A stretch of DNA of 64,000 nt from Terriglobales bacterium (GTDB lineage Bacteria; Acidobacteriota; Terriglobia; Terriglobales; Acidobacteriaceae), in NCBI GenBank assembly GCA_035651655.1, contig DASRFG010000023.1:1-64000 (forward strand), given 5' to 3'. The notes beneath the pieces were generated by a model, which made no database searches, was not told where the DNA came from, and was given only the letters and a program-made list of their open reading frames with translations. A program made the position numbers and the translations under genes. Numbering within the stretch: the first letter of the stretch is position 1; every line of letters starts with the position of its first letter. Positions 1,627 to 61,555 of this stretch are shown here, piece by piece.

Positions 1627-3399
1627 TCAGTGCGCTTCCACGTGATACGGAACCTTGGTGCCCATCTTCTCGGCTACATCAATGGCAAAATTCGCTGCAG
1701 TCCCAATCACGCCTTTGTATTTCGGCACTTGATAGAGTGCCGCCGAAAGCTCCGGATTCTGCGCTACGTATTCCCTTAGCTCGTCAGCGCTCTTGCCGAT
1801 CTTCTGCAACACGTCCTTGAATTCCAGCTTGGCTTTGGCTTTGGCCTCGCCCAGCGCCATTTGGACGCGGCTGTGAGCGTTGATCTCGCCTTCGCCGGAG
1901 GTTTCGATCGGCAGGAAGATCATGTCTTTGTAATGCGCAACCACGGCCGACTGTGCACCGTCAGATTGCGTGGAAGGCATGCAGCCGAACGGCTTCAGCG
2001 ATAGCACCATGTGCGCCAGTTCTTTATTAGTGTAGTAAATGTTCTTGGCGACCTCCAGGTGGCCCTCGCCGCCTTCTGCGCGGGTGTTGTAGTAAGGATG
2101 TCCCACGCGCTGCAGTTCGTATTGGTTGACAAGCTTGTGCCCTGTCCCGCCGAGCGCCTCCACGATCTTGTGGTACTCGCGGGCAAAGATCATCTCCGCA
2201 GCCTTCAGTTTCATCAGCTTGTTGCGGTAAGTCCATTCAATCTTGGCGTGCTTATCCAAGCGCCAGCCGGCGGGCATCACCGCACCTTCCTCCAGCCCGC
2301 GCCGGTCTTTGGTCTTCTGGATCGCCTGATGGATGAGGTAATTGATCCAGGTTGCGATGGACTCGACAATGACCTGTGCGCCTTCACGGTTGAGGAAAGC
2401 GAACATGTTGAAATTGCCGTCGCCTTCGGTAGTCTGAGCCCAGAATTCGCCGGTGATCTTCACGATCGGCTTCACTTTAAGCCGATCCACTTTGATCGAG
2501 TTAAACCGGTCGCGAACGTGATTCAGCGCCTGCACGTAATCATCGCTGTAGAGCTGCTCCAGGAATTTGCCCAGATACTCGACAGTTCCCTTCATCGGCA
2601 GCATGCCCGCAACTTTGCCTAGACGTTCTTCAACCGTCCACGGTGACTTCTTCCGAAGCACTTCATACATGTAGTCCACAACTTCGTCGAGCACTGCATC
2701 GGTTTCGCCGGCGTTCACCTCAAAGGCGCGAATCTGATGCGCGACTTCATTGATCACGTCTCCCATGTTCATGCCGTTGAGCATGTTCAAGAAGAAGTCC
2801 AGATTCATTTCCAAACCGGCTTCTGCTTCGGCCTGGTTGAGCCCGCCCGACTGCTGGAACAACATGACGCGGAATCCGTCAAAGCCGGCATTGCGGAGGG
2901 CGAGCCGGTACTCAGCCTCATACATGCCGAAGCGGCAGGGCCCGCACGCGCCCGCGGTCAGGAAGACGTAGTTATTGATCAGGTCTTCGCGCTTTTGGCC
3001 AGCTTCTTCCAACTGTTGCAGATACTGCACCAGGTTGCCGACAGTGAAATATGTGGGATTGCACTGCCCGTTGTTGCCGTACTCTTTGCCCAGCTGGAAC
3101 GCCTTCACGTTCGGCGTTGGCACGACTTCGCACTTGTATCCCAAGCCTTCCAAGGCACCCTGTACTAGTTTTTCGTGCTTCCAAGTCAGGCCACCAAAAA
3201 GCAGCGTGGTCCGAGGCCGCTGATCGGCTGTGAAGGCATGTTCAATCGGCTTATGGAAATTGTGCGTCTGCTTGTGCACAATGCCAGCTTCCTTTTCCAG
3301 CCGGGCACGCTCTTCCGCCACGCGTTGGCGAATCATTTCCTCAACCGTCGAGATCTGGATAAGTCCGCTGTTGTTCACAGGATGCGTCGAAGTGCTCAT
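1627..3399 (-). CDS. DUF2229 / HgdB-like partner of the 2-hydroxyacyl-CoA dehydratase activator
   Basis: A 590-residue cytoplasmic protein without a signal or membrane segment. The N-terminal part has a predicted coiled stretch (VEEMIRQRVAEERARLEKEA), followed by LLFGGLTWKHEKLVQGALEG, typical of the DUF2229 region that is fused C-terminally to the activase in roughly 1,400-residue proteins of other bacteria. Cysteines that could hold an iron-sulfur cluster appear in NNGQCNPTYF, AGACGPCRFG and KPFGCMPSTQ, as in HgdA/HgdB subunits. AAGGTG sits about 6 bases before the ATG. It lies directly upstream of the activase gene (1-1533), so here the fused protein is split in two. It could act as electron acceptor or scaffold for the activase; the reaction is unknown. 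Confidence 0.8.
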   Translation of the reverse strand: MSTSTHPVNNSGLIQISTVEEMIRQRVAEERARLEKEAGIVHKQTHNFHKPIEHAFTADQRPRTTLLFGGLTWKHEKLVQGALEGLGYKCEVVPTPNVKAFQLGKEYGNNGQCNPTYFTVGNLVQYLQQLEEAGQKREDLINNYVFLTAGACGPCRFGMYEAEYRLALRNAGFDGFRVMLFQQSGGLNQAEAEAGLEMNLDFFLNMLNGMNMGDVINEVAHQIRAFEVNAGETDAVLDEVVDYMYEVLRKKSPWTVEERLGKVAGMLPMKGTVEYLGKFLEQLYSDDYVQALNHVRDRFNSIKVDRLKVKPIVKITGEFWAQTTEGDGNFNMFAFLNREGAQVIVESIATWINYLIHQAIQKTKDRRGLEEGAVMPAGWRLDKHAKIEWTYRNKLMKLKAAEMIFAREYHKIVEALGGTGHKLVNQYELQRVGHPYYNTRAEGGEGHLEVAKNIYYTNKELAHMVLSLKPFGCMPSTQSDGAQSAVVAHYKDMIFLPIETSGEGEINAHSRVQMALGEAKAKAKLEFKDVLQKIGKSADELREYVAQNPELSAALYQVPKYKGVIGTAANFAIDVAEKMGTKVPYHVEAH

Positions 3400-3724
3400 C
3401 GCTTCACCTTCATTTCGTGGCTTGGGGTGGAAGTTCTGTTCGCTAACGGATTATGCAAGATACACCACTAGCATTCGGGTAGTCGTTGCCATTCTTGTAC
3501 TATTCCTTGCTGAATCGAATCCATTTGTAGCGAACGGCTGAAATTGCTGGTCTAAGAGAGTCTGACGCCGCTTAAGTGGGAGCAAAACATTGGCATTCAG
3601 TGACTTACAAGCTCTCCCCCGCATTGCGAAAGGCCTCCTGCGACCGTAGCCGCTGCGAAATTCAGCCGAAGTGATGCCGGGAAGGTAGCTTGCGATGAGT
3701 CTGCGGCGCAAGCGACAAAGCTCC
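3400..3724. other. Gene-free spacer of 325 bases
   Basis: The spacer lies upstream of the DUF2229 gene and downstream of the TPR sensor gene, both on the minus strand. I see no convincing gene, RNA or terminator. A 107-codon frame at 3451-3774 starts inside the TPR gene and has no recognisable features. The promoter of the activator operon should be here, but I could not find a clean -35/-10 pair. Confidence 0.4.
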
Positions 3725-5569
3725 TTAGGTGGAATGTCGCAATTTGTCGTATCGGACAGAGCTGCGCGACTCAACTGACCCGGTGAGGCCTACGCGATTG
3801 AGCAATTGCTGATATCGGCGGTCGGCCCGGAGCTTATCGCCCATAGGTTCGCTGGCAAGATACACCAGGTAATCGCAACGTTCGTCATATGCCCTGCTAA
3901 GCCAGCGGAATGCCTGGTCTTTATCGCCCAAGCCTTCGTAAACCACAGCAATGTATGCTGCGGGTACGTAGCGACCGGCCGAAAGCTGGCGCAGGCGCGA
4001 CAGGATCTCCTTGGCGCCTACGGAATCTCCGGTGATGGCATCCTCGTAGGCCAGCAACATGAGGATTCCAGGATCCTCCCCGGCAGCTGCCAGGGCCTTG
4101 TGAAAGATTTCCTTTGCCTGGGCGTGCATGCCCTTCTGACCGTAAGCCCGTCCCAGATTGATGAGCCCGATCGCGAAGTTCGGATCAAGCTCCAGCGATT
4201 TCTGGTATTGCTCGATGGCCGCGTCGAACTGCCGGTTGAGATAGAGCACCTCGCCCAAAGCGGATGTGATCACTGGCGAGAGTGGATCCAGTTCTTGCGC
4301 CTTCTTACGTTCGGCAATCGCATCGTGTAGATGGCCGATGGCGGTCAGATAGTAGGCGTAATACTGGTGTGCTGTGGCATTGTCCGGACGCAACTGCAGA
4401 GCGCGCTGAAATTCCCGCTGTGCTCCACTGGAATCCCACTCGTATACCAATTTGGCGTAGCCCAGAGATACATGCGCTTCGGCGAGGTTGGGATCAATTT
4501 CTAGCGCTCTGTTGGCGGCGGCCTCAGCTTTTGGAAATGCAGCTTTAGGCGGTAGCGCGGTGTATGGCACTGAGCCGAGCAGTCCGTAGCAGTCAGCGAG
4601 GCCCGCGTGTGCGGCAGCATAGTTGGGCTGTTTCGCGATGGCATGTTCAAAGTACTGGACAGCTTTGGTCAGACTCTCAGGAGTGCGCTTGTTCCAGAAG
4701 TACCGGCCTTTCAGATACGCTTCGTAGGCTTCGGGGTCAACCTGGGGAGCAGGGGTTGAGGAGGTTGGCAGTTTGCTGCTGATCGCGCTGGCAATCGCAC
4801 GGGCGATCTCGCTTTGAATTTGCAACACGTCGCTCAGATCGCGTTCGTAGCTTTGTGCCCAAACTTCAGTTTGATCCTGAACCTGGATCAGTTCTCCCGT
4901 TACTCCGACGCGCCCTCCGGCACGTCTGACACTCCCCTTCAGCACGTAGCCCACCTGAAATTCCTTGCCAATCTCACGCAGAGGTTTGTCGAGATAAGTT
5001 GCATTCAGAGCTACGACGCGGATCTTCTGCGGGCTGACCTGGGACAAGCGGGCGATCATCTCGTCCGTAAGTCCGGCGGCAAAGTACTGCTGGTCAGGAT
5101 CTCCACCCAGATTCTTGAAGGGCAGGACGGCTACTCTCACTCTCGAAGGAGCGGGATTTCTCCAGTGCTCAATCCATCGGGCAATCTGGCCATAATTTGA
5201 GGCGATCGTGATGGTAAAGGCAACTGCAAGCGTGACGAAAACAAGACGCGAGACGTGGATGTTTTGCTTTGCTGTCTTCGGCGCCTCTACGGGGGTTTCG
5301 CTTGTGACATGCTGATTGCTTTGCTCTTGCTTTTCAATGCCGGCCTGGCGGCTGTGCCACCAGGTGTCGAGTTCAGAGCGGTAGGCGTAAACCGTCCCCA
5401 GCTTTTCGTGAAGATGGCGATGGACCGGGAGGCCCTCACTGCGCTCCCAGCGTTGGACCGTCCTGACCTCGCGGCGGAGATAGGCGGCAATTTCCTTCCA
5501 GGAGTCGAGGCGTTCACTGGCAGGGCGATCGCTTGACCCGAGTTGCGGTTCTGCGTCTAAGTCCGCCAT
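3725..5569 (-). CDS. HTH - transmembrane - TolB/FlgO-like - TPR protein
   Basis: A 614-residue inner-membrane protein. Residues about 22-52 (SWKEIAAYLRREVRTVQRWE) form a MerR/excisionase-like helix-turn-helix. One membrane helix follows near 106-126 (LVFVTLAVAFTITIA), then a TolB/FlgO-like domain starting RVAVLPFKNLGGDPD, and then about eight TPR units to the end. The layout predicts a cytoplasmic DNA-binding head and a periplasmic protein-binding tail, as in CadC-like one-component regulators; this is inference. I chose the ATG at 5569 because GGGAG lies 5 bases before it; a TTG four codons earlier is the alternative. A good promoter is present at 5606-5634. The kinase at 38700-42323 shares the TM, TolB-like and TPR parts but has a different input domain. 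Confidence 0.8.
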   Translation of the reverse strand: MADLDAEPQLGSSDRPASERLDSWKEIAAYLRREVRTVQRWERSEGLPVHRHLHEKLGTVYAYRSELDTWWHSRQAGIEKQEQSNQHVTSETPVEAPKTAKQNIHVSRLVFVTLAVAFTITIASNYGQIARWIEHWRNPAPSRVRVAVLPFKNLGGDPDQQYFAAGLTDEMIARLSQVSPQKIRVVALNATYLDKPLREIGKEFQVGYVLKGSVRRAGGRVGVTGELIQVQDQTEVWAQSYERDLSDVLQIQSEIARAIASAISSKLPTSSTPAPQVDPEAYEAYLKGRYFWNKRTPESLTKAVQYFEHAIAKQPNYAAAHAGLADCYGLLGSVPYTALPPKAAFPKAEAAANRALEIDPNLAEAHVSLGYAKLVYEWDSSGAQREFQRALQLRPDNATAHQYYAYYLTAIGHLHDAIAERKKAQELDPLSPVITSALGEVLYLNRQFDAAIEQYQKSLELDPNFAIGLINLGRAYGQKGMHAQAKEIFHKALAAAGEDPGILMLLAYEDAITGDSVGAKEILSRLRQLSAGRYVPAAYIAVVYEGLGDKDQAFRWLSRAYDERCDYLVYLASEPMGDKLRADRRYQQLLNRVGLTGSVESRSSVRYDKLRHST

Positions 5570-57086: not shown

Positions 57087-57965
57087 CTATTGCCGTTCGC
57101 CAGTTCGCGCGCTCACTTCCATCTCCCGATGCAGCTCGTGGTTGGGATGCAAGCGATGCAGAATCACATGGAGGAGAAACATCAGGATCAGCACGGCGCC
57201 GAAAGTACATACAATGGTGGCGCCGGTAGGAAGATCGAATAAAACCGAGAAGTAGACTCCGAGCGCGGAAACCAATGTCCCCATGGTCCAGCCGATCGCC
57301 AGTCGAGGGCCAATCCGGTCAGCGAACAGCATGGCTCCGACCGAGGGAACGACCAGGTAGCAGAAAACCAGCAACACTCCAGCGATAGATACGGAAGAGG
57401 TGACTACAAAGCCGAAGGACGCGTAAAACAAGAAATCCCAGAAGCGAATATTCAATCCCCTGGCCGCGGCGGCAGCCGGCTGGGTGGAAATAAGAAGAAA
57501 GTTGTGGCGAAAGATGTAATGAAATAATCCAATGACCCCATAAAGGGCCGCGGTTTTGATGACGTCGTGCTTGGAAACCGCCAGAATGTTGCCGACCAGC
57601 ATGTCTTTGAGGTGCTCGGTTTCACCCGTAGCCTTACTCATGGCGAGGATGGCCGCAGCCGAAGCCACGGCATAGGCAATTCCAATGAACGCCTCCTGGG
57701 GAATATGCCCACGGCGGGTGCGCGCCAGGGAAAAGATCCCCGCCCCTACAAATGTGAATGCCAGGCTGAGCCAATAGGCGCCACTGCCGTGCGGATCCAT
57801 TCCTATCAGAATGGCGATGGTGGCGCCCAAGGCAGCGATCTGCGCCAGCGCAAGATCCACGAAAATGACGCCACGTTCCACCACATGCACGCCCAGGTAG
57901 GCGTGGATGCCGGTGAGGATGAGACTGGCGAGAAAAGGGGCCAGCAAAAATGGAAGAATTTCCAT
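57087..57965 (-). CDS. Zinc/manganese ABC transporter permease
   Basis: A 292-residue, eight- or nine-helix ABC-3 family permease (ZnuB/TroC type). It starts LLAPFLASLILTGIHAYLGV, then VDLALAQIAALGATIAI, and VFCYLVVPSVGAMLFADRIG is typical of the coupling region. It follows the binding-protein gene by 15 bases. His-rich HLHPNHELHREME at the C-terminus may touch metal in the cytoplasm. No ATPase gene is next to it in this window, so the transporter needs one encoded elsewhere. Metal specificity (Zn or Mn) is inferred from the family only. Confidence 0.88.
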   Translation of the reverse strand: MEILPFLLAPFLASLILTGIHAYLGVHVVERGVIFVDLALAQIAALGATIAILIGMDPHGSGAYWLSLAFTFVGAGIFSLARTRRGHIPQEAFIGIAYAVASAAAILAMSKATGETEHLKDMLVGNILAVSKHDVIKTAALYGVIGLFHYIFRHNFLLISTQPAAAAARGLNIRFWDFLFYASFGFVVTSSVSIAGVLLVFCYLVVPSVGAMLFADRIGPRLAIGWTMGTLVSALGVYFSVLFDLPTGATIVCTFGAVLILMFLLHVILHRLHPNHELHREMEVSARTGERQ

Positions 57966-57980
57966 AGTCCTCCTCGGGAG

Positions 57981-58928
57981 CTACTGTCCAACTTCCTTGA
58001 AGCCTTTGATTAAAAGGGCAATGTCATAGTCGAAGAGCTTGAAGTAGTCTGTGACTTGCTTTTCCCCGCCCACCGAGGGCAGCAAGACTAACACCTTGCC
58101 TCCTACTGCGCTGGCAATACTGTTTGGCGTTTTCAAGTCGAAGTAGGGTTCCACCACAATTAGCTTTACATTGTCTCGTTTCATCATCTGAATCAGCTCG
58201 ATGGTGTGGCTGGGAGTGGGTGGAATGCCCGGGCGCGGCTCGACGTATCCCACCACATCCAAACCGAAATGCTTGACAAAGTTTGGCCATGAACGGTGGT
58301 AAGTCACCAGCTTGCGGCCGTGATAGGGTTTCAATTGCTGGTCCCAAACTCTTTCCGCTCCGGTCAGACGTCTGTCGAAGTCCTGAAATCGTTGCTGAAA
58401 ATAACTAGCGTCCTTGGGCTGCAGTTCGCCCAATTTTTCCGCGATTCCCTTGGCAATGCGCCTGCCGTTGCCCGGATCAAGCCAGTAATGCGGGTTTCCC
58501 AAAGGGTGAACATCGCCCATGGCACGGGTCACTTGTCCGGTGGGAATTTCCAAAATTTCGGCAAATTGCGAAGCATCGAGATACCCGGGCGCTCCAACCT
58601 GGATGCGAGGGTTTCCCGATTGCGTGATCAGCGGCGGTAGCCACCCGATTTCCAGTTGCAACCCAACTACGATCAAGAGGTCGGCCTGGCGAAGCTTCAA
58701 CAGAAAGCTGGGTTTTGGCTCCACGAAATGCGGGTCCTGATACCCCTTGGCGATGGATTCCACGTTAATGCGATCCCCGCCGACTTCCTGGGCGAGGGAT
58801 GCCAGATCGGTGGTGGAAGTGACCACAGTCAGCTTTTTCGCCTGGGCAGCAACCGGCATCAATACGACTGCCAGAACCAGAACGATAGCTATGAGGCTTA
58901 ACGAACGGGCATTGGTGTTTAGCATCAA
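57981..58928 (-). CDS. Periplasmic zinc/manganese-binding protein (ZnuA/TroA-like)
   Basis: A 315-residue cluster A-I solute-binding protein. The signal peptide (IVLVLAVVLMPVAAQA) precedes VVTSTTDLASLAQEVGGDR. The expected metal ligands are present: His in YQDPHFVEPKP, His in GNPHYWLDPG, His in VTYHRSWPNF and an acidic residue in VVEPYFD. The long His/Asp-rich loop found in true ZnuA is missing, as in TroA or MntC-like proteins. It delivers metal to the permease at 57087-57965. It follows the barrel gene by five bases. Confidence 0.9.
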   Translation of the reverse strand: MMLNTNARSLSLIAIVLVLAVVLMPVAAQAKKLTVVTSTTDLASLAQEVGGDRINVESIAKGYQDPHFVEPKPSFLLKLRQADLLIVVGLQLEIGWLPPLITQSGNPRIQVGAPGYLDASQFAEILEIPTGQVTRAMGDVHPLGNPHYWLDPGNGRRIAKGIAEKLGELQPKDASYFQQRFQDFDRRLTGAERVWDQQLKPYHGRKLVTYHRSWPNFVKHFGLDVVGYVEPRPGIPPTPSHTIELIQMMKRDNVKLIVVEPYFDLKTPNSIASAVGGKVLVLLPSVGGEKQVTDYFKLFDYDIALLIKGFKEVGQ

Positions 58929-58933
58929 GACTC

Positions 58934-60214
58934 CTAGAACGGGTGAGCGCCGTGCGCTCCCAAGGAAAATTGTATTTGCATCAGCACTTCGTTGGCATCC
59001 AGACCCTCAGCGTAATGGGTAAAGCGATATTGGCCGCGAATCTGGCTAAATTCACTCGGCCAGTAGGTCAGCACCGCGGACCCGCCTTTATCGGTGAACC
59101 TGCCATTGCGGCTGCGATCAGCCCAATCGTACCGCCCACCGATGAACCAGCGGCGGCCCAACTGGTAATCCCCTGAGGTGTAGAAGCCGAAGCTGCGCTG
59201 CTCCAGCGGAAGTTGTTGCCGCTGGCTCCAAATCAGCTCTGTGCGGCCAATAAAAGAATGATAGATGGCGCGGCGTAAAGGCTTCCACCGAACAGTCGCA
59301 TCGATCCCGTACAGCTGGGTCAGGAAATTGGAGCCGAGATCGTTGTGCCCACGCGCATAGGAGAGTCCCAGGTCGAGATTGGTGGACTCCGTAATATCGC
59401 GGTAACCGCGCAGGTGGGCTACCGTGCTCACATCGCTTTTGCGGAACGACTTAAAGACTTCATCTGAGTCACCACGAAATACCTGTCCGGTGGCTTGCAG
59501 GAAGATTCCCTTAGGCGCCGGCAGAATACGCTCAATGGAGAAACCCGCGTCATTGATACCATCCTCGCCACCGACCAGATTTTCGCTTACCAGAGGCCGG
59601 TCCACCCAGGGCAGCACGTGATTGTGCATGGTATTTACTTTACCGAATGCTGAACGCATCTTGCCGGCGCGCGCGACAAACCCGGCAGGCAGCGCCGTGA
59701 AAGTAATGTATCCCTCCTCAAGATTCACGCCGCTCTCACCGAATGACAGAAAAAAATCGCCGCGCGCGTAGGGATCAATAATGGCTTGCAAGCCGAGCTC
59801 CGATTCGTGCATTTGAAGAGCTGGCGACGGCCGGATGGAATTCCCTCCCCCGGTGGCGATGAAGTCGCCTATGGCGCTTATGTCCGGATTCAGCGCCTTG
59901 GCTGCGGCTGAAGCACCACCGTAAACCGGCAAGGGGCCCGCGGAAGGCGCCGCCTCTACTTGCACGGTGGGGGCCGGGGCAGATGGCGCGGGCGCGACTG
60001 GCGCCGGGGCCGGCGCTGCGGCTTGCGCCACCTGTTGACTCTTAAGAACGCGAACCTGCCCTTCGAGCGCGATAATGCGCTCTTCGAGAGCTTTGATCCT
60101 GGCATCTACAGCCCCCGAAGCCCGCTCCACTGCCTGAGTGGGTAGGGGATTCTGCGCCTGGAGAGACATCGAGCTTGAGATCAACACAAAGAGCAAGAGC
60201 CTGTGGGTTGTCAT
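58934..60214 (-). CDS. Outer-membrane barrel with N-terminal coiled coil, metal-operon linked
   Basis: A 426-residue protein. Signal peptide (LLLFVLISSSMSLQA), a coiled coil (VDARIKALEERIIALEGQVR, about 36-58), an Ala/Pro linker, and a porin-like beta-barrel from about 110 (HESELGLQAIIDPYARGDFF, YITFTALPAGFVARAGKMRS) ending in a C-terminal Phe after HGAHP. The coiled coil could form a trimer or reach the peptidoglycan. Its place, five bases before the binding-protein gene, suggests that it lets zinc or a metal complex through the outer membrane. It does not look like a TonB-dependent receptor: no plug domain is visible. Confidence 0.8.
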   Translation of the reverse strand: MTTHRLLLFVLISSSMSLQAQNPLPTQAVERASGAVDARIKALEERIIALEGQVRVLKSQQVAQAAAPAPAPVAPAPSAPAPTVQVEAAPSAGPLPVYGGASAAAKALNPDISAIGDFIATGGGNSIRPSPALQMHESELGLQAIIDPYARGDFFLSFGESGVNLEEGYITFTALPAGFVARAGKMRSAFGKVNTMHNHVLPWVDRPLVSENLVGGEDGINDAGFSIERILPAPKGIFLQATGQVFRGDSDEVFKSFRKSDVSTVAHLRGYRDITESTNLDLGLSYARGHNDLGSNFLTQLYGIDATVRWKPLRRAIYHSFIGRTELIWSQRQQLPLEQRSFGFYTSGDYQLGRRWFIGGRYDWADRSRNGRFTDKGGSAVLTYWPSEFSQIRGQYRFTHYAEGLDANEVLMQIQFSLGAHGAHPF

Positions 60215-60306
60215 CGCATTACTCCTTCATTCGGGTCCCCGAAATTGAGAGAGAAACTGCCGGCCAGCGCGACCTTTTGCCGACGAGAGATAAGATGAGA
60301 ACAGTT

Positions 60307-60627
60307 TTATGCGATCGGAGGAGCGCGCGGGCCCAGGGCTGGAGTTTCCAAACTGACGGTCCGCTCCGCTGACGAACCAACATAGATTGTTTGATGAAGG
60401 TTCGAAGAGAGTGCAAATGGCAAACTTACCGGCCCGGAAGGCTGTGCCATCAGACAAGTTAGACATTTGCCGCTGGAGGAAGCAAAAGATGCGGCTACGT
60501 TCGAGTGTTTGACGAGCGTTGTGCTGGCACAAAGATGCGCTGCTTGTAACGCTGACGCTAAAAGGATCGCCACTATGCTCAAGAAGTTGACAACCCGGCG
60601 ACTTGCGCTGATGTCCACACTCCTCAT
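60307..60627 (-). CDS. Small exported protein with CxxC (DUF2946-like)
   Basis: A 106-residue protein. A signal or anchor helix (VVNFLSIVAILLASALQAAHL) is followed by SSGKCLTCLMAQPSGP, a CxxC pair, and the tail ends ALGPRAPPIA, similar to the RxPP ends of DUF2946-like small proteins found near metal or cytochrome genes. It is the first gene of the putative metal operon, 92 bases before the barrel gene. It may be a metal chaperone or membrane adaptor; this is inference. The ATG at 60627 has only a weak ribosome site. Confidence 0.55.
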   Translation of the reverse strand: MRSVDISASRRVVNFLSIVAILLASALQAAHLCASTTLVKHSNVAASFASSSGKCLTCLMAQPSGPVSLPFALSSNLHQTIYVGSSAERTVSLETPALGPRAPPIA

Positions 60628-60688: not shown

Positions 60689-61555
60689 ATGCCCAACAGC
60701 CGCGGAAACGGTAACCTGGGGTATATCTCCGAGTTGCGCCGGGCACTGAGCGAATGCAGCCAAAAGTATGCATCGGCCGCTGGTGCGCCGCACCGGCTGA
60801 GCTACGGGGGAGTGCCCACGGTTGTCTTTGAGCCCGATCCGCAGGGACCCCGGCACGGGAACTTCTTGACTACGAGTTATCGTGCCATGCTGCGGAATCC
60901 GTCCTGGCAGCGCCGCCTGGCCAAGACCCACTCACAACGCAAGCGCTTGCCGCAGCCTGACAACGGCTGCTGGAGCGAACTGGACTCCTGCAACAGCTCC
61001 GATGCGCTGCTCATGAATATTTTCTGCTACCCGCGGATCCTGGCTTACATGCCAGTGGCTTCACTGCTGGGCGTGGACACCGAAGGTGTGCCGGAATTTG
61101 GATATCGAGCGAGGGTGCCGTTGCAAGGCGGCCGCTTCGACCGCACAGAGGTGGACATGCGAGTGGGCAGCTTGCTGGTGGAAGCCAAGCTGACCGAGGC
61201 CCATTTTCAAAGGAGAGAGAAAACGGCGGTGGAGCGGTATTCCGACTTTAGTGAAGTTTTCGATTGCGGGCGCCTGCCTCAAAGCGCGAGTGAATACTTC
61301 AGCTACCAGCTGATCCGCAATGTGCTGGCGGCCCATGCCTCGGGCTGCTCATTTTGCTTAATGTGCGACTCTCGCCGCCCAGACCTGATCGGTTTATGGT
61401 TTGAGGTTTTGCAGTGGGTACGGCCGGTGGCCTTGCGCCTGCGATGCAAGCTGCTCACCTGGCAGGAACTGGCGGCCACGCTGCCTCCCAAGTTGCAGAA
61501 GTTCTTGCAGCAAAAATACGCGATTCTGGGCACTCCCGCTGGCTTCTCAGCGTAA
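60689..61555 (+). CDS. PD-(D/E)XK nuclease-like protein
   Basis: A 288-residue cytoplasmic protein. The block RTEVDMRVGSLLVEAKLTEA (about 152-171) fits the PD-(D/E)XK core, with Asp followed by a hydrophobic strand and ExK. SSDALLMNIFCYPRILAYMP and YFSYQLIRNVLAAHASGCSF are shared by a group sometimes labelled PGN_0703-type putative restriction endonucleases. Several cysteines occur in the second half (SGCSFCLMCDSRRPD). No methylase or other defence gene is nearby, so a repair or housekeeping role is equally possible. It is divergent from the metal operon and followed by a phosphoesterase gene 21 bases on. Confidence 0.6.
   Translation: MPNSRGNGNLGYISELRRALSECSQKYASAAGAPHRLSYGGVPTVVFEPDPQGPRHGNFLTTSYRAMLRNPSWQRRLAKTHSQRKRLPQPDNGCWSELDSCNSSDALLMNIFCYPRILAYMPVASLLGVDTEGVPEFGYRARVPLQGGRFDRTEVDMRVGSLLVEAKLTEAHFQRREKTAVERYSDFSEVFDCGRLPQSASEYFSYQLIRNVLAAHASGCSFCLMCDSRRPDLIGLWFEVLQWVRPVALRLRCKLLTWQELAATLPPKLQKFLQQKYAILGTPAGFSA

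Follow-up and report, generated by a model that had tools for sequence, protein, structure and literature searches.

A set of four genes in the stretch of DNA analysed here, the 64,000-nucleotide window (positions 1 to 64,000, or C23:1-64000, of a 39-contig draft genome of a Terriglobales bacterium that is 99.78% complete), belongs to a stable, phylum-wide metal-import cassette of ATP-binding cassette (ABC) origin that has no recognised motor. The cassette occurs in soil bacteria of the Acidobacteriota; in the window its four genes all lie on the reverse strand and encode, in this order, a small H...CxxC...RxPP protein, a porin-like barrel, a binding protein of the ZnuA type and a permease of the ABC-3 family. 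Our best explanation, which we put just short of an even chance and which rests on sequence comparison, is that the cassette is an ATP-free importer of a divalent metal, most likely zinc, that would derive from a ZnuABC-type ABC importer. The evidence on how the permease is powered conflicts, and we lean only slightly toward ATP-free uptake over a borrowed ATPase of an unrelated kind. The genes, and the two stretches of the permease gene discussed below, are as follows.

60307 to 60627, reverse strand: small N-terminally hydrophobic protein P0004, 106 aa, no Pfam family.
58934 to 60214, reverse strand: outer-membrane barrel P0003, 426 aa, from a predicted model, porin matches in the Protein Data Bank (PDB) and an 11-row family alignment.
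57981 to 58925, reverse strand: periplasmic metal-binding protein P0002, ZnuA/AztC-like, 314 aa (PF01297, 1.7e-53).
57087 to 57965, reverse strand: ABC-3 permease P0001 without ATPase partner, 292 aa (PF00950, 3.6e-34).
57441 to 57500, reverse strand: coding stretch of the ATPase-docking loop of the permease, residues 156 to 175, from permease alignments.
57825 to 57875, reverse strand: coding stretch of the motif RGVIFVDLALAQIAALG in the second transmembrane helix (TM2) of the permease, residues 31 to 47, in which Q42 replaces the usual permeation histidine.

The spacing is 92 bp between the small protein and the barrel, 8 bp (counted from the ATG) between the barrel and the binding protein, and 15 bp between the binding protein and the permease. 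The first-pass annotation of the window had the coordinates and the order right (CxxC small protein, coiled-coil barrel, binding protein, permease), and its observation that the ABC ATPase is absent from both flanks was confirmed: no PF00005 match occurs in the window, and the nearest one is an exporter at C23:71358. It had further supposed a dedicated metal route across both membranes, which fits the finding that barrel, binding protein and permease remain linked throughout the phylum.

The recurrence of the gene set is documented by several scans. The best 80 of 458 permease relatives in named genomes all came from Acidobacteriota metagenome-assembled genomes (MAGs), except for a 4.35-kb contig filed as Candidatus Bathyarchaeota (L117, permease at 77% identity), whose assignment is probably a binning error in that MAG. 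After removal of six that repeated genomes already sampled, 74 distinct loci were counted; the binding protein is present in 73 of them and the barrel as well, in the same gene order, in 64, the ten without the full order being mostly cut by contig ends. Such a recurrent order excludes chance. An ABC ATPase of any kind lies within 5 kb in two of these 74 loci, and both belong to other systems. Eighteen of 61 relatives had an ABC-3 match, and the 11 of the window's type are all without a ZnuC-type ATPase above 142 bits. Across the phylum, 88 of 247 genomes gave some permease match; 40 loci were taken and the 34 with a strong permease match counted, of which 31 have no ATPase within the set (at one of the 31, L227, an ATPase is present on the opposite strand, outside the set). 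Altogether, no ATPase is found inside the set in 117 of 117 clade loci (74 from named genomes, 12 of the class with the window included, 31 of the phylum), a count taken outside the family f13 and possibly including some organisms twice. The window's permease type is present in 86 of the 396 genomes searched, and a tblastn search with the permease in plasmids returned distant Staphylococcus permeases only; with the best 80 of 458 relatives considered in the named genomes, members in other phyla may exist. Searches of open-licence papers brought up no account of this cassette, nor of any ATPase-less metal ABC permease in Acidobacteria.

An ATPase inserted in relatives, which the first-pass annotation had named as a sign of simple local loss, occurs only in a distant sister group, at three loci of the single family f13 (L234, L235 and L238). 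There it lies between the binding protein and the permease, and the barrel stands in front of the set in the two loci that extend that far. Because the insertion is confined to this sister group, local loss is not the explanation, and a local loss or an assembly gap is also rejected by the phylum-wide conserved gene set and by the single-contig genome G069. ATPases near the cassettes in L102, L120, L121, L153 and L290, named by eye from sequence, length and neighbours as UvrA or as ModC-, ABC-2- and TupC-like, were set aside as parts of other systems; in L290, a TupB-like permease and an ATPase (2304-3742, by eye) stand downstream of a loop-deleted cassette.

The window genome holds 38 PF00005 matches, none of ZnuC or FecE type, together with one ABC-3 permease and one ZnuA, and it has no FecCD permease besides the cross-match of P0001 itself. 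The genome-wide search for orphan ZnuC/TroB-type ATPases that the first-pass annotation had suggested recognised none of the ZnuC type. A ZnuC model trained on same-class loci of the ordinary ABC-3 kind gave 191 bits for E. coli ZnuC and 112 for the best single-domain ATPase among the 30 ATPase loci of the window genome that were scored. In leave-one-out runs, true ABC-3 ATPases reached 166 to 285 bits and the best window-genome ATPase 146 to 155, the closest margin being 166-178 versus 153. Ordinary ZnuC matches above 360 bits in five relatives are training rows of the model and prove nothing on their own; the independent controls are E. coli ZnuC and the leave-one-out scores. A tree of 67 ATPases places none from the window genome or G069 with the ABC-3 or FecE types, and in G069, a single contig of 2.4 Mb in which the cassette is present, the leave-one-out scores and the tree both gave no ZnuC/FecE-type ATPase.

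Reading of the neighbours placed nearly all window-genome ATPases beside partners of other systems, which were named by eye from sequence and neighbours (PotABC, LptB, OpuC, SsuABC, MlaEF, LolCDE, FetAB, ModBC, PstB, Ccm, SufC, Opp and exporters). Again by eye, only a LolD-like ATPase (C13:5849) and a split pair of OppD/OppF-like ones (C6) have no permease next to them. The best-scoring AztA-like ATPase (C15:27300) was considered as an orphan partner and rejected, as it sits with its own SsuA/SsuC-type genes. We also observed a 503-aa frame (L023 1201-2712; G000:C23 about 89.7-91.3 kb) that looks by eye like a MobA-like molybdenum-cofactor nucleotidyltransferase fused to an MlaF-like ABC ATPase.

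In a tree of 58 permease rows, from which the docking-loop columns were excluded, the 43 ATPase-less permeases form one group (Shimodaira-Hasegawa-like approximate likelihood ratio test, SH-aLRT, 99), and the three ATPase-bearing permeases of f13 are their sister (joint branch 99); several long branches and a quick search leave the fine structure of this tree unsure. Within the ATPase-less group, a nested group of five permeases (support 98) has an eroded docking loop, which is short by 7 residues in two members and lacks 14-15 residues in three, the larger deletion removing the whole docking helix. With a wider search, the number of genomes with an eroded loop rose to nine: the loss amounts to 3 residues in one of them, 7 in three and 14-15 in five. 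In these permeases the helices on either side of the loop are intact, and their genes still adjoin those of the binding protein and the barrel. Among permeases with an adjacent ATPase, erosion of the loop was seen in 0/15. In the ATPase-less permeases that keep the loop, several docking positions are relaxed compared with ordinary permeases: position 161 is hydrophobic in 25/38 versus 12/12, position 164 acidic in 22/38 versus 11/12, and position 171 aliphatic in 28/38 versus 12/12. Position 165 is hydrophobic in 0/38 ATPase-less and 12/12 ordinary permeases, but in 0/3 of the ATPase-bearing sister too. Around the loop, R153, F156, R174, W176 and D177 are found in 34 to 38 of the 38 clade members and are not conserved in ordinary permeases; these residues may be the sign of a new partner or gate.

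The permeation path differs as well. The permease model is middling, with a predicted local distance difference test score (pLDDT) of 66; its top fold match is PsaB (7kyp, Z 15.7 over 191 residues), and the other top matches are BtuC-fold permeases, well above the rows under Z 8, which are unrelated folds. In a manganese ABC importer, the path is lined by Asp47, His51 and Asp94, all three of them essential (PMC8487065). In our alignment, the permeation histidine is Gln in 43/43 ATPase-less permeases and in 3/3 sister permeases of f13, and His in 12/12 ordinary ones. The second Asp is replaced by Glu in 43/43 ATPase-less permeases and is Asp in 3/3 of f13, while the 12 ordinary permeases have Asp in 8 and Glu in 3. 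In addition, an Asp shifted to one residue before the first Asp position occurs in 43/43 ATPase-less permeases and in 0/15 others. The Asp-His-Asp intramembrane metal site of ZnuABC-type importers is not intact in window-type permeases, and judging from these alignments the permeation path is remodelled, with part of the change preceding the loss of the ATPase. In several lineages the ATPase-less permease has a C-terminal HEAT-repeat domain (PF13646, 2e-14 to 3e-23; L071 2497-3918, L212 5845-7296, L217 5000-6487), possibly a new interaction module.

The barrel P0003 is composed of a signal peptide, a coiled coil, a low-complexity linker, a 16-strand porin fold and a C-terminal GAHGAHPF; in its AlphaFold model (38 rows, pLDDT 81) the signal peptide is followed by a helix of 39 residues, a disordered linker and 16 strands. 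When the model was compared with the PDB by Foldseek, general and anion porins came out on top (best E 5.7e-10, TM-score 0.43-0.54 in the top ten), and the best solved matches include Omp32, VhChiP, OprO and DcaP and are not TonB receptors. A TonB-dependent receptor is defined by a 22-strand barrel with a plug and a TonB box. The cassette barrel differs from it in having 16 strands and no plug domain in the model, and it matches no Pfam family and no Pfam receptor domain, which bears out the first-pass view that it is not of the TonB type.

The small protein P0004 has H31, C55xxC58 and a C-terminal R101-x-P-P. In an alignment of 24 such proteins encoded upstream of barrels, which were picked for CxxC and a plausible look and not for the H, R and P residues, H31, C55, C58, R101, P103 and P104 are all invariant, although the identity to P0004 is 17-34%. 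Of 98 loci whose sequence extends 500 bases or more upstream of the barrel, 62 yielded a candidate under a simple CxxC rule, a few of the 62 being false, such as a thioredoxin-like protein in L082. On these alignments, we regard the small protein as a genuine fourth part of the cassette. P0004 itself matches no Pfam family, DUF2607 included, and the DUF2607 profile matched weakly (0.0046) in one of the 24 family members, which we take as a lead and not as membership.

In the binding protein, all 11 of 11 aligned rows have His66, His146 and His210, and the closest solved relative is the zinc-uptake binding protein 2ov1 (8.5e-31). Zinc is the best guess for the metal. A DtxR/MntR-type repressor with a FeoA domain is encoded divergently upstream of one cassette (L227 2494-3222, reverse strand), so manganese and iron are still candidates. 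A common palindromic operator was not found upstream of 94 cassettes, the palindromes being shared by isolated pairs only; one such pair (L159/L160) resembles a Zur-like box. The gene divergent from the cassette in the window (60689 to 61555, forward strand) matches PF22558 REase-ARP (5.5e-41), a restriction-endonuclease-like family.

We propose that a ZnuABC-type importer would have lost its ATPase gene and then become fixed in Acidobacteriota. Metal would enter the periplasm via the dedicated porin-like barrel; the small H/CxxC protein and the binding protein with its three histidines would handle it there before it is passed to the permease dimer, which would let it through without ATP hydrolysis, driven by the membrane potential and the very low free metal in the cytosol. 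The identity of the metal, the direction of transport, the roles of the barrel and the small protein and the independence of ATP are those that we infer. ATP-free uptake is favoured because the nested lineage has eroded its docking loop and because no ATPase of the subfamily expected was recognised in the window's family; the changes at membrane residues that are essential in the manganese importer also count for it. In the clade of the window itself, ATP independence is favoured by a narrow margin only.

Several observations weigh against ATP-free uptake. The window permease keeps the AxxxG docking motif (A166, G170), and among the loop-keeping ATPase-less permeases A166 is kept in 36/38, G170 in 37/38 and both in 35/38, while most positions near them vary freely in the same 38 permeases; the two residues thus seem to be held in an otherwise variable loop as if an ATPase still docks. 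The eroded-loop lineage probably has a single evolutionary origin and not several. The change of the permeation His to Gln is common to the ATPase-bearing sister (3/3) and is therefore no sign that ATP is dispensed with. In two species of the genus g74, whose loci are among the 31 of the phylum, the same strand carries a FecCD-FecE operon immediately upstream of the cassette (L219 9802-11626; L248 8875-9669 plus the frame upstream). Finally, when a ZnuC+FecE model was applied to 33 genomes, 12 of the 30 cassette genomes held a ZnuC/FecE-type ATPase somewhere, at 199 bits or more, and f13 gave 3/3 at 268-272. The other 18 cassette genomes, including 8/8 of the window's family, had nothing above 182 bits, with a cut, between 199 and 185 bits, that was set after the scores had been seen; a borrowed ATPase of the expected subfamily is therefore no general answer. 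A count of ZnuC in 5/59 cassette genomes is not relied on, because its threshold would miss ATPases of the sister type.

The strongest rival holds that the ATPase acts in trans, the permease borrowing an ABC ATPase of another subfamily, with only the nested loop-less lineage being ATP-free. We consider this a serious possibility, though well short of even. It is favoured because the window's clade keeps AxxxG in 35 of its 38 permeases, and S. aureus offers a precedent, since Hts, Sir and Isd have no ATPases of their own and use FhuC (PMC10147376); the FecCD-FecE operon upstream of the cassette in g74 points the same way. However, the FhuC precedent stays within one subfamily, and no ZnuC/FecE-type ATPase was recognised in the window genome or in G069; nor does the window genome encode another type II permease that might lend its ATPase; nearly all of its ATPases have other partners, with the LolD-like ATPase at C13:5849 and the OppD/OppF-like pair at C6 as the exceptions; and docking positions 161, 164 and 171 are relaxed. 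The first-pass suggestion of an ATPase shared with another system may hold: the kept docking motif speaks for it, and the lack of a recognised ZnuC/FecE-type ATPase in the window genome speaks against it. If true, a borrowed ATPase of an unrelated subfamily would itself be new.

It is very unlikely that a cognate ATPase was missed, either unassembled or too diverged for recognition: the genome is a draft of 39 contigs, and the sister ABC-3 ATPases of f13 reached only 131-134 bits in the first ZnuC model, but completeness is 99.78%, the same absence holds in the single-contig G069, and the leave-one-out scores and the tree set true ABC-3 ATPases apart from all tested ATPases of both genomes. 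Just as improbable is a cassette that no longer imports, its permease serving as a sensor, anchoring the binding protein or heading for loss, since, although the motor and the usual permeation His are both lost, permease, binding protein and barrel have stayed together phylum-wide and are strongly conserved, with no decay.

ABC importers are regarded as strictly ATP-driven. On the sequences compared here, an ABC metal importer may in Acidobacteriota have evolved into one that depends on its binding protein but not on ATP, has a pore of its own in the outer membrane and uses a BtuC/ZnuB-fold permease working on the membrane potential alone, a view that we hold at somewhat under an even chance. 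The preserved intermediates would be the ATPase-bearing sister and the docking loop that is kept, shortened or deleted. The graded series from a full docking loop to none opens to direct test the question whether type II importers can function with no ATPase. Moreover, the cassette is a defined candidate for a non-TonB-dependent route of metal through the outer membrane, it draws attention to two protein families that are uncharacterised, those of the barrel and of the H/CxxC/RxPP protein, and genomes that carry it could be mis-annotated with zinc ABC import as present, or as lost.

Compared with importers of the ZnuABC/PsaABC type, the cassette shares the permease family and fold, the binding-protein family and the neighbourhood of binding protein and permease. 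It differs in having no ZnuC-type ATPase in the operon or recognised in the genome and in having Gln in place of the permeation His, and it adds a dedicated porin-like barrel and the small RxPP protein. The S-components of energy-coupling factor (ECF) transporters are an unrelated membrane protein, with no binding protein and no outer-membrane barrel. They are alike in that the membrane part of an ABC-related importer is found without its ATPase module, and solitary ones such as BioY indicate that this part can work so (PMC4820897). The Zur-regulated zrg operon of Vibrio parahaemolyticus lists the DUF2607 protein ZrgD beside the gene of a zinc-binding protein (PMC9817125); ZrgABCDE differs in having its own ATPase, ZrgC, and the DUF2607 match of the cassette is weak and found in one of 24 members. 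The FhuC-sharing systems Hts, Sir and Isd of S. aureus resemble the cassette in their permease operons without ATPase and in the AxxxG of the docking loop, and A213 and G217 in the coupling helix of IsdF are jointly needed there to contact the shared ATPase FhuC (PMC10147376); in those systems, however, an ATPase of the permeases' own subfamily exists, whereas none was recognised in the window genome. If our best explanation of ATP-free import holds, the cassette would be like the TRAP transporters in that a binding protein feeds a non-ATP transporter (PMC8276074), while the membrane proteins and the substrates of the two are unrelated.

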